Assembly: GCF_028330525.1 (NCBI RefSeq) | Contig: NZ_JAQMSD010000292.1 | Location: 1-33,051, forward strand | Origin: Spirulina sp. CS-785/01 | GTDB taxonomy: Bacteria; Cyanobacteriota; Cyanobacteriia; Cyanobacteriales; Spirulinaceae | Direction of reading: 5' to 3' | DNA length: 33,051 nucleotides | Translations under genes and position numbers: made by a program | Shown: in pieces, positions 3,401-7,753 of the stretch | How positions within the stretch are numbered: the stretch's first letter is position 1 | How the letters are laid out: each line of letters opens with the position of its first letter | Notes under the pieces: generated by a model | Seen by the model: the letters and a program-made list of their open reading frames with translations, nothing else | The model's database searches: none | What the model was told of the DNA's origin: nothing

Positions 3401-4924
3401 CTAGGCTTTCACCCGTGTGGATTCGTCACCCACTTTCTGGAACACACCCCATTCCACTTGTTCTTCGATGTCGGGGTCGATCCCGGCGAAGACATCTCGG
3501 TAGAGGGTACGAGACCCGTGCCAGATATGTCCGAAGAAGAATAGGAGGGCAAAGACGGCGTGGCCAAAGGTGAACCAACCGCGAGGGGAGGTACGGAAGA
3601 CCCCATCCGAGTCTAAGGTTTCCCGGTCAAAGGCAAATGGCTCACCTAATTGCGCTTTCCGGGCGTATTTCTTGACTTTTAAGGGGTCATCAAAGGTTTG
3701 TCCGTCTAAAGCCCCGCCAAAGAAGGAAACGGTGACTCCGGCTTGCTCAACACTGTATTGAGATTCTGCCCGACGGAAGGGAATGTCAGCGCGGACTACT
3801 CCATCGGAGTCGGTTAAGACGACGGGGAAGGTTTCAAAGAAGTTGGGCATCCGACGGACGCTGAGTTCGCGGCCTTGGGCATCTTTGAAGACCGGGTGGC
3901 CTAACCATTCTTCGGCGATACCGTCTCCGGTATTCATCGGCCCAACGCGGAATAAACCGCCTTTGGCTGGGCTGTTGCCGATGTAGTTGTAGAAGGCCAG
4001 TTTTTCGGGGATTTTAGACCAAGCCTCAGAACGGCTATCCCCCGCGGCCATGTTGGCTTGTACCCGACGGTCAATTTCTTCTTGGAAGTAACCTTGATCC
4101 CACTGATAGCGGGTGGGGCCAAAGAGTTCAATGGGGGTAGTCGCGCTACCGTACCACATGGTTCCGGCTACGACGAAGGCGGCAAAGAAGACGGCGGCGA
4201 TACTGCTAGAGAGAACCGTCTCGATGTTCCCCATCCGTAAGGCTTTGTAGAGGCGTTCGGGGGGACGGACGGTTAAGTGGAATAATCCGGCGATAATGCC
4301 GACAATTCCGGCTGCAATGTGGTGTGCCACGACCCCGCCGGGGTTAAAGGGGTTGAATCCGGCGGCTCCCCATTCGGGGGCGACGGGTTCGACGTGGCCG
4401 GTGAGGCCGTAGGCATCGGAAATCCACATTCCGGGGCCAAAGAGTCCGGTGAGGTGGAATGCCCCAAAGCCGAAGCAGAGTAAGCCGGACAGGAATAAGT
4501 GGATGCCGAACATTTTCGGCAGGTCGAGGGCAGGTTCGCCCGTGCGGGGGTCTCTGAATAATTCTAAGTCCCAGTAAACCCAGTGCCAGCAGGCAGCGAG
4601 GAATAAGAGACCTGCGAGAACGATATGCGCGATCGCAACCCCTTCAAAAGACCAAATACCGGGGTCGGTGTACGGTTCTCCGGTGACGTTCCAACCGCCC
4701 CAAGAGGTAGTTACCCCTAAGCGGGCCATAAAGGGCATAACAAACATCCCTTGTCGCCACATGGGGTTAAGAACGACATCACTAGGATCAAAAACGGCCA
4801 ATTCGTAAAGGGCCATGGAGCCAGCCCAACCGGCCACTAATGCGGTGTGCATGAGGTGGACGGCGATGAGGCGGCCTGGGTCGTTAATTACGACAGTATG
4901 AACTCTGTACCAAGGTAGTCCCAT
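3401..4924 (-). CDS. psbB: photosystem II chlorophyll-binding protein CP47
   Basis: CP47 is the core antenna of photosystem II. It binds chlorophyll a and beta-carotene and passes excitation to the D1/D2 reaction centre in the thylakoid membrane. The protein begins [19 protein letters not shown] and has 507 residues, the standard length. The six-helix layout with conserved His ligands (for example [55 protein letters not shown]) and the large lumenal loop between helices 5 and 6 are all present. The start ATG has GGAGGAG a few bases upstream. psbT follows on the same strand. Confidence 0.98.
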
Positions 4925-4984
4925 CGACTACTCTCCTCCTATCGAAAATCTTGTTAGCGTGAGTATTTTTAGGAAGTATTTCCA

Positions 4985-5222
4985 TCGTCTAGACCCCAGA
5001 AACAGAGGGTAGGTTGTCCTGTGTCCTTTGTCAGGTGTCCTTTGTTGGGGTTGACCTTCCCCAACTGGCTGAACGATACAGCCATGATTCCCTTGCCGAA
5101 GGCTCAGGAATGTCTTTGCTTAATACTTCAAAGCTGGAAGTTGCTTCCCTTGGGAGGGTCGCATGACTCTCGGCTTCATGGAACAAACTGAAGCGAATAC
5201 GGTTCGCTTCCTTTTTTTAAAA
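4985..5222 (+). ncRNA. candidate structured small RNA upstream of psbB
   Basis: The plus strand here has no ORF but a run of hairpins: 5044-5050/5059-5065 (GTTGGGG, 7 bp), 5066-5071/5079-5084 (TGGCTG, 6 bp), 5087-5091/5107-5111 with an inner CCTT/AAGG, and 5125-5129/5137-5141. They are capped by a classic intrinsic terminator (stem 5190-5197/5203-5210, then CTTTTTTT). The terminator points along the plus strand, where no gene exists upstream, so it most simply ends a non-coding transcript divergent from psbB. I do not recognise it as tmRNA, RNase P RNA or SRP RNA; 6S RNA or a lineage-specific regulator are possible. The 5' end is not defined by a clear promoter. Inference from structure. Confidence 0.45.
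5190..5217 (+). terminator. intrinsic terminator of the candidate small RNA
   Basis: Perfect 8-bp stem GAAGCGAA / TTCGCTTC with a 5-nt loop, followed by C and seven T residues. The U-run is only on the plus strand, which fixes its direction. Confidence 0.8.
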
Positions 5223-5275
5223 GTTGTTTAAAGAAGTGTAAACGATTATGAGAGTGTTCTGCAAGTGGGATTATT

Positions 5276-5587
5276 TTAGGCCGAGGCACGATTAAACACC
5301 GTTTCGGCTTCCATGAGTTTAGCGATCGCTTGTTCTGCCGAAATTAATCGCTTTAAGACAACTTGGCCAATGCCGGAGTCGGAGTCGGCCAAATTGAGGG
5401 GACGCACTTCAATCATCAGCACGGCTTCTTCTACTTGATACAGCCATAACCGTTCCCCATGGTCTATAATCCCCAAATCCAGACGCAGGATGTCTGGCCG
5501 TCGTCGCCAAACGCTTTCATTCCACAGGCCGCCAAATTCCCAAACCCGGCCTACTCCCCAACCCTCTGAGAGAAAAAAGTATTTCAC
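5276..5587 (-). CDS. conserved hypothetical protein (103 aa)
   Basis: I do not recognise a named family. The protein starts at GTG (position 5587) with KYFFLSEGWGVGRVWEFGG, has a Trp/Arg-rich first half (ESVWRRRPDILRLDLGI) and a compact second half ending in a helix (AEQAIAKLMEAETVFNRA). There is no signal peptide or membrane segment, so it is probably cytosolic. Composition and codon use match the neighbours, and the sequence reads like a small folded protein rather than a shadow frame. It is divergent from the coiled-coil transporter gene at 5818. Confidence 0.65.
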   Translation of the reverse strand: MKYFFLSEGWGVGRVWEFGGLWNESVWRRRPDILRLDLGIIDHGERLWLYQVEEAVLMIEVRPLNLADSDSGIGQVVLKRLISAEQAIAKLMEAETVFNRASA

Positions 5588-5817
5588 GGTTACTCTAAAT
5601 GTGTGGTCTTTGCGTACAATGTCGAAAATGGCAGTGGTTTTCCGCCCTTAAAAGAATATAAGGATTTACAAAAATCTATCATTCGGGGGGATAACAGCGA
5701 AGAAGTAGCCTACAATCGACAGAGAACAGTCCACAACTTTCTCACAATCAGACGGTGTTGTGCAATCGGATTGTAGGTTTGTGAGAGTCAGTCGAATGGC
5801 GTAGAGGTCTATTTCTA

Positions 5818-7533
5818 ATGGGGCAACTGGATCAACAACCGGATCAGAATCCTGAAACGGCACAAGAGAATTTACAAGCAATTACCGAGGAACTCGAACA
5901 GCTTAAAAGTAGCTTGGTTCTGCAACTGCATCAAGAAATTGATCAACTGCAAAATCGCAAAACGCGACTTTTGGCAGAAACGGAGCAATTGGAGTTACAA
6001 CGCCAAGAAAAAGCGGAGCAGCAGCACGCCTTGGCTCAACAATTAGCTCCGGTGATTGCGGAACAGATTTTGGAGCATTTGCGCGATCGCTTGACTCAGG
6101 GATCAAATGCCTTTGAGGGGAGCGTCTCCAATGGGTCTTTAGATAATTACAATGACAACGCCTATCGGCTGATCGCGTCGTTAGATACGACATTGCGAAC
6201 TACCTTTAAAACCCTACAACAAGACCTCAACAGCTATCAAAGTTCCCTGTCTCAACAGTTGGGACAAATGTATAACTTGGAACAACAGGGAGAAGTCCTG
6301 CTCGATACCCTAGTTGACCGTTTAAAGGCAGAATTGCAACAAGATACGGTGAGTTCTCCCTCCTCTCCCACGGTGAAACCTCCCACGGTGAGACGGCCAG
6401 AACTCCCCCCTCCCCCGAAACCCCCCTCCCAGCGAGAGGGTCGTCCGACCAAACCCCCAGAATCCCAAAAATCCCCACAACCTCCGAAACGAGTTAGCAA
6501 ATCTCAAATCCAGTTGGGGTTTTTGCTCATTTTGTTATCTTCTTTGGCACTCTCGTTCCAGAATGTTGTTATTAAACTGATTTTATCCTCCTTCGCCCTT
6601 TTCCCTTGGCTATTTGGGGAACAATTTACCCTAGGAGGTTATATTTCTCCGGGGTTTGGCAACTCAATTTTGATTCTCTGTTTACGAATGGTGGTGGTTG
6701 TTCCCCTGATGTCGGTTCTCGCTCAATTTCTTTATCCGAACAGTTGGCCGGATATTCGCCGTTTTTTCCAGTCTGGGGATAAAGATGCCTATTGGAAAGT
6801 TGTCGGCTGTGGTTTCTTCTTGTTTGTCTCCTCGGTCTTCATTTACATGGCCTTAGGACAATTAACCCCTGGGGTGGCCTTAACTCTATTCTTCGTTTTC
6901 CCCATTGTCACTGTGTTAATGTCTTGGCTCTTTTTTGGTGAACGACCGTCTTGGGTACGTGCTGTTGCCACCGTTGTTGTTTTGGGAGGAGTTAGCCTCA
7001 TTCAGTTAGCCTCCGGTGGGGATACGGTGAGTTTATCTGGTGCCGGGGTGACATTTGCAATTTTAGCCGGGGTGACATTTGCGTTTCATGTTCTGTTGAT
7101 TCAAGCCTGTACCAAAAAATTACACCCTGTTCCTTTTAGTGTTCTCAATTTTGGGGTAATTTTGCTGTTTTCAGTCTTGTTTCTCTTACTGTTAATGGTA
7201 GCCCCGTTACCCACTAATATGCAGATTGAGGTTGATCCCACCATGCAAGTCAATATTCTGATTAGTGGTTTAGTTTTAGGTGGACTGACTCTCTTGAGTT
7301 ATCTGTTAAATAGTATTGGGATCACTTATATTGGGGCAGCACGAGCTTCTATTATTGGCGCGACTGGGCCAGCGTTAACCTCAATTGCTGCTTTGATTGT
7401 CATTGGAGAAGGATTAACCCAAGGAGAAACTTGGGGAATGGTACTGGTGACAGTGGGGGTTTTGATTTTGAATTTAGAACGGTTTTTTGCTCCTAAAGCG
7501 AAACCGCGTCAATCCCAACAAAATCAGAAGTAA
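5818..7533 (+). CDS. EamA/DMT-family transporter with N-terminal coiled coil
   Basis: The C-terminal two thirds (about residues 230-560) is a drug/metabolite-transporter (EamA) permease with about ten hydrophobic helices. It shows the two-repeat layout, for example LGQLTPGVALTLFFVFPIVT in the first half and ITYIGAARASIIGATGPALT in the second. The first 130 residues are a charged Glu/Gln/Leu-rich coiled coil, and a Pro-rich linker (about 185-225) joins the two. Typical EamA proteins have about 300 residues, so the cytosolic coiled coil is an added domain that could mediate oligomerisation or partner binding. The substrate cannot be told from sequence. The ATG at 5818 is the first in frame. The next gene follows after 34 bp. 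Confidence 0.85.
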   Translation: MGQLDQQPDQNPETAQENLQAITEELEQLKSSLVLQLHQEIDQLQNRKTRLLAETEQLELQRQEKAEQQHALAQQLAPVIAEQILEHLRDRLTQGSNAFEGSVSNGSLDNYNDNAYRLIASLDTTLRTTFKTLQQDLNSYQSSLSQQLGQMYNLEQQGEVLLDTLVDRLKAELQQDTVSSPSSPTVKPPTVRRPELPPPPKPPSQREGRPTKPPESQKSPQPPKRVSKSQIQLGFLLILLSSLALSFQNVVIKLILSSFALFPWLFGEQFTLGGYISPGFGNSILILCLRMVVVVPLMSVLAQFLYPNSWPDIRRFFQSGDKDAYWKVVGCGFFLFVSSVFIYMALGQLTPGVALTLFFVFPIVTVLMSWLFFGERPSWVRAVATVVVLGGVSLIQLASGGDTVSLSGAGVTFAILAGVTFAFHVLLIQACTKKLHPVPFSVLNFGVILLFSVLFLLLLMVAPLPTNMQIEVDPTMQVNILISGLVLGGLTLLSYLLNSIGITYIGAARASIIGATGPALTSIAALIVIGEGLTQGETWGMVLVTVGVLILNLERFFAPKAKPRQSQQNQK

Positions 7534-7567: not shown

Positions 7568-7753
7568 ATGGGAAATTCTGAGTTTGCCGAGATTTTATCT
7601 TGGACTCCTGAAGCGAAGCAAAAGTTGAAGAATATTCCATATTTCGTGCGATCGCAAGCCCGTCAACGCATTGAAGAATTAGCACGAGAGGCGGAAACTT
7701 CGGTGGTGACGGTGGATATTGTGGAGCAAGCTCGCTTGGAGTTTGGACAGTGA
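7568..7753 (+). CDS. stand-alone PCP_red-domain small protein
   Basis: A 61-residue protein that consists almost entirely of the domain found at the C-terminus of ChlB, a subunit of light-independent protochlorophyllide reductase. The diagnostic pattern is [20 protein letters not shown] followed by [11 protein letters not shown] and a V-TVDIVEQA helix. In ChlB this domain helps position substrate; free-standing copies exist in cyanobacteria with no established role. A strong Shine-Dalgarno (AAGGAGGAAG) sits just upstream of the ATG. It is 34 bp behind the transporter gene and may be co-transcribed. The family call is firm, the function is not. Confidence 0.85.

Follow-up and report, generated by a model that had tools for sequence, protein, structure and literature searches.

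The hairpin-rich region upstream of psbB in Spirulina sp. CS-785/01 is most likely the psbB mRNA leader and ends in a conserved predicted start-codon hairpin

The psbB locus and its promoter

The window analysed here is a stretch of 33,051 nucleotides of cyanobacterial DNA from Spirulina sp. CS-785/01, which carries on its minus strand the gene psbB encoding CP47 of photosystem II (3401-4924; Pfam PSII, E 3.3e-276), followed by psbT (3175-3080). Directly upstream of psbB lies a leftward ORF of 103 aa (5276-5587, minus strand), which returned no match in Pfam or NCBIfam; its position is kept in several relatives, as seen at loci L035 and L053. The stretch under study, 4985-5222, occupies the gap between psbB and this ORF, which ends at 5276. 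Further along, the plus strand encodes an EamA-type transporter with a long N-terminal coiled-coil and a proline-rich region (5818-7533) as well as a lone 61-aa PCP_red domain protein of the protochlorophyllide reductase subunit family (7568-7753). That the stretch is a mobile or repeated element was considered and rejected, as no second copy was present in its own genome at E 0.01 and no plasmid matched.

A psbB promoter is located on the minus strand at 5264-5228, consisting of TTGCAG (5264-5259), an 18-nt spacer and TACACT (5240-5235), followed by TCTTTAA. This promoter is conserved across cyanobacteria. The psbB upstream regions of 100 other genomes of the order, plus that of the window, were scanned with the pattern TTGCA-N17/18-TACACTTCTTTAA, allowing up to two mismatches, and 69 of these 101 genomes carried it as compared to 0 of 2,020 shuffles. 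The spacer measures 17 nt in 58 genomes and 18 nt in 11, the window belonging to the latter. Within its own genome, the window promoter is the sole site with zero mismatches, and no other occurs at three mismatches or fewer. Scanning public genomes for the exact pattern retrieved 27 contigs, 25 of which have psbB 74-314 nt downstream, while the remaining two end before psbB could appear. At the level of the class, most genomes carry the same promoter, deeply branching ones included, its ending usually being TTTAT. In Xenococcaceae cyanobacterium MO_188.B32 (L135:4481-5695), the psbB promoter and leader start are found twice, 1.2 kb apart, and a patatin-like ORF lies between the two copies on the opposite strand.

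The -10 box and the predicted transcription start are overlapped by an HLR1-like (RpaB-type) site, TTTACACT-TC-TTTAAACA, at 5242-5225 on the minus strand. Counted by eye, this putative site agrees with 13 of the 16 specified bases of the consensus KTTACAWW-N2-KTTACAWW, as quoted from PMC13421787.

The psbB leader and the plus-strand reading

Minus-strand transcription would begin near 5228, at the conserved promoter. With the start assumed to lie 7 nt past the -10 box, the predicted 5' leader of psbB measures ~303 nt (5227-4925, minus strand; folding z -3.16) and holds the whole stretch 4985-5222, with a Shine-Dalgarno sequence and the start codon downstream. Because the conserved minus-strand promoter predicts a leader that covers it, the hairpin-rich stretch most likely belongs to the psbB (CP47) mRNA as its leader, read from the strand opposite to the one proposed in an earlier sequence-only reading, which had described a structured RNA divergent from psbB. 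The predicted leader, at 303 nt from promoter to start codon, compares to a median of 159 nt elsewhere (range 51-507). As a group, psbB leaders are modestly structured (mean z -1.5 in sense and -1.3 in antisense orientation, 80 leaders), and that of the window is among the ten most structured of the 80. Thus, the leader would be longer and more structured than most, with a genome-specific body that includes a repeat. Four psbB leaders (L040, L046, L060 and L061), measuring 314-334 nt, contain ~180 nt extra right after the promoter, bounded by GGTAAC at both ends. The extra segment precedes the leader start known from other species (AATCTTTCATTTTC) and looks like a small leader insertion.

Comparison of the window leader body with its orthologs revealed short words at chance level only, the ribosome-binding end excepted. 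Since the body lacks conserved sequence, its hairpins may do nothing. A conserved structure of the leader body was tried and dropped as a candidate, the orthologs offering no sequence similarity as a starting point. Part of one of the hairpins is made up of a degenerate tandem repeat of heptamers at 5015-5045, and similar repeats are found at many places in three relatives (G006, G020 and G035). Short tandemly repeated repetitive (STRR) heptamers occur in cyanobacteria. The repeat at 5015-5045 is like them in resembling repeats that are dispersed in relatives; unlike them, its copies are degenerate (~70% matches) and none is present elsewhere in its own genome at E 0.01. At the other end of the stretch, a stem-loop with a 9-bp stem (5190-5218) is placed near the 5' end of the leader, where it may protect or stabilise the psbB mRNA.

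Several observations of the sequence-only reading were borne out. The stretch indeed folds into consecutive hairpins (plus-strand MFE -94.4 kcal/mol, z -2.7), it is crossed by short ORFs only, and the 9-bp stem at 5190-5218 is followed on the plus strand by CTTTTTTT, that is, it resembles an intrinsic terminator. However, the assignment to a divergent plus-strand RNA found no support, given that folding of the minus strand departs from shuffles no less than that of the plus strand (z -3.2 vs -2.7) and that conserved signals near the stretch are confined to the minus strand, namely the promoter (5264-5228) and the ribosome-binding region (4940-4915). The suggested link to photosystem II expression is retained in that the stretch most likely represents the psbB mRNA 5' leader, and is given up as far as a separate plus-strand RNA is concerned.

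Alternatively, the plus strand could encode a regulatory RNA that is antisense to the psbB leader, starting near 4940-4990 and ending at the 5218 terminator; by pairing with the leader, it could control the psbB mRNA. Its terminator-like hairpin with CTTTTTTT and the plus-strand folding z-score of -2.7 are in line with such an RNA. However, no plus-strand promoter-like site was detected in 4500-5700 in a weak scan for which ~1 chance site is expected, the body sequence is not conserved, the minus-strand leader accounts equally for the hairpins, and the terminator has no counterpart in the other 81 orthologous leaders scanned (1/82 in total). We consider an antisense RNA improbable. The comparison of psbB upstream regions among relatives, proposed earlier as a check for compensatory changes, gave a leader body unlike that of orthologs and the terminator in this one leader; accordingly, the hairpins of the stretch are, as judged from sequence, particular to the Spirulina sp. 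CS-785/01 genome. An unusually located 6S RNA, or a member of any other known RNA family, is suggested by nothing but the size of ~240 nt and the serial hairpins; it can be practically dismissed, as the Rfam covariance-model search yielded 0 matches in the window at gathering score and, at relaxed threshold, two matches at chance level (E 3 and 4.5), both to unrelated families and neither to 6S.

We place high confidence in the account of a minus-strand psbB leader that originates at the conserved promoter and ends in a start-codon hairpin. The original finding is mostly explained as an unusually long psbB leader viewed from the wrong strand, whereby hairpins once attributed to a putative novel small RNA become part of the leader of psbB, a core gene of photosystem II.

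A predicted hairpin around the psbB start codon and its frozen codons

The leader is predicted to end with the Shine-Dalgarno sequence AGGAGG (4940-4935, minus strand), which is conserved in orthologs, and then a 6-bp hairpin, GTAGTC-GATGG-GACTAC (4931-4915, minus strand), formed together with the first codons of psbB (stem probability 0.99 in the window). In its general form, AGGAGG-N3-GUAGUC-R-AUGG-GACUAC, the arms pair perfectly around the AUG, which resides within the 5-nt loop, and the Shine-Dalgarno sequence is positioned just outside the stem. Of 186 psbB genes, 155 can form a stem of 6 bp or more across the AUG, as compared to 5.4% when the 22 bases upstream of psbB were shuffled, indicating that conservation of pairing exceeds chance. 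At the start of other genes in the same loci, a strict 6-bp stem was seen in 2 of 129 cases. The 71-nt start region of the window folds no better than its shuffles (z -0.14), and the evidence for the hairpin therefore comes from conservation and codon choice rather than from overall stability.

The coding side of the hairpin is remarkably constrained at the synonymous level. All 58 full-length psbB genes with the hairpin use CTA as codon 3, although this codon accounts for 13% of the leucine codons at their other positions; among the remaining leucine sites, the best conserved one reaches 59%. For codon 2, 55 of these genes have GGA and 3 have GGG, a codon still able to pair with U, whereas GGT and GGC, together accounting for 70% of glycine codons elsewhere, never occur at this position in combination with the hairpin. 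Codon 4 is free to vary. When codons 2-3 were recoded synonymously, the predicted probability of the stem fell from a mean of 0.89 to 0.13.

Most psbB genes carry an identical hairpin sequence, and covariation therefore seldom tests pairing. This identity would also be expected if the GTAGTC...GACTAC palindrome were kept as a primary-sequence or DNA motif rather than as an RNA hairpin, serving in protein binding, ribosome contact or interaction with a trans-acting RNA. Several features argue against such a motif. One clear compensated stem, GUAAUUC-AUG-GGAUUAC, is present at locus L198 (genome G261), in a lineage just outside the main hairpin-bearing clade. Several G-U changes in the arms preserve pairing, and where bases are inserted beside the AUG, both arms shift register together and still pair. 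Moreover, the commonest glycine codons GGT and GGC are avoided, while the pairing-competent GGG does occur. We thus regard a primary-sequence motif as rather unlikely and consider it probable, with good confidence, that selection acts on the hairpin as a structure.

No such hairpin occurs in f41, a group with small genomes that is similar to marine Synechococcus and Prochlorococcus and has TTG as codon 3. It is likewise missing in a lineage of family f66, in which codon 3 is TTA, and in the basal lineages sampled. In the L093 group and at L182, L183 and L191, the stem is broken, yet CTA is retained, a point against the hairpin account. Mapped on the tree, changes of hairpin and CTA are few, too few for statistics on their joint loss. 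A description of the psbB start-codon hairpin was not found in the open literature searched; as far as this literature shows, the hairpin is undescribed. The reassignment of the stretch also brings to light a start-codon hairpin of psbB whose synonymous codon choice is fixed in most of the cyanobacterial lineages sampled.

Possible roles of the hairpin and comparison with known systems

The hairpin would act on the initiating ribosome by slowing or gating initiation. That it controls translation we consider somewhat more likely than not, and its most likely role would be to determine or gate how fast a bound 30S subunit accommodates the start codon. Candidate signals are feedback from CP47 or from assembly, a protein or RNA ligand, and temperature. 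In Synechocystis, the translation efficiencies of psbB and psbC fall in the cold (PMC8651088), which fits a temperature signal, yet is not specific to psbB. Conservation of the start-codon hairpin in most cyanobacteria suggests that CP47 production is under a control not described so far, and the hairpin renders translational control of cyanobacterial CP47 directly testable. A more far-reaching and speculative proposal, to which we give a fairly low chance, is that most cyanobacteria use this hairpin to control CP47 synthesis, and that a factor signalling light or the assembly of photosystem II binds or opens it.

At the level of transcription, the closest known system is the psbB promoter of Synechocystis PCC 6803 and Synechococcus PCC 7942, that is, the same gene under RpaB/HLR1 control. 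According to a 2026 review, RpaB represses where HLR1 overlaps the transcription start, from -38 to +23 (PMC13421787), and psbB is among the RpaB-repressed targets with start-overlapping HLR1 in both strains (PMC13421787, citing Piechura 2017 and Riediger 2019). As in these strains, the HLR1-like site of the window lies over the predicted start, a position described for repression; unlike there, the site matches 13 of 16 consensus bases, and both start and binding are predictions from sequence. Located over the -10/start region, the site would let RpaB tune psbB, and RpaB, whose binding we infer here, probably does so in response to light.

At the level of translation, the cyanobacterial hsp17 RNA thermometer (PMC4477652) is likewise a small single hairpin at the translation start. 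The hsp17 stem contains both start codon and ribosome-binding site, whereas the psbB hairpin has its start codon in the loop and leaves the Shine-Dalgarno sequence outside the stem. The hsp17 hairpin is regulated by temperature; the likeness of psbB to it concerns the position and size of the predicted hairpin. In chloroplasts, control by epistasy of synthesis feeds back on photosystem II subunits at the step of translation (PMC12449265). This control has been described for chloroplasts and provides a parallel setting only for the cyanobacterial psbB hairpin. If the proposal made above were true, hairpin control of CP47 would represent the bacterial counterpart of the translational assembly feedback operating in chloroplasts.
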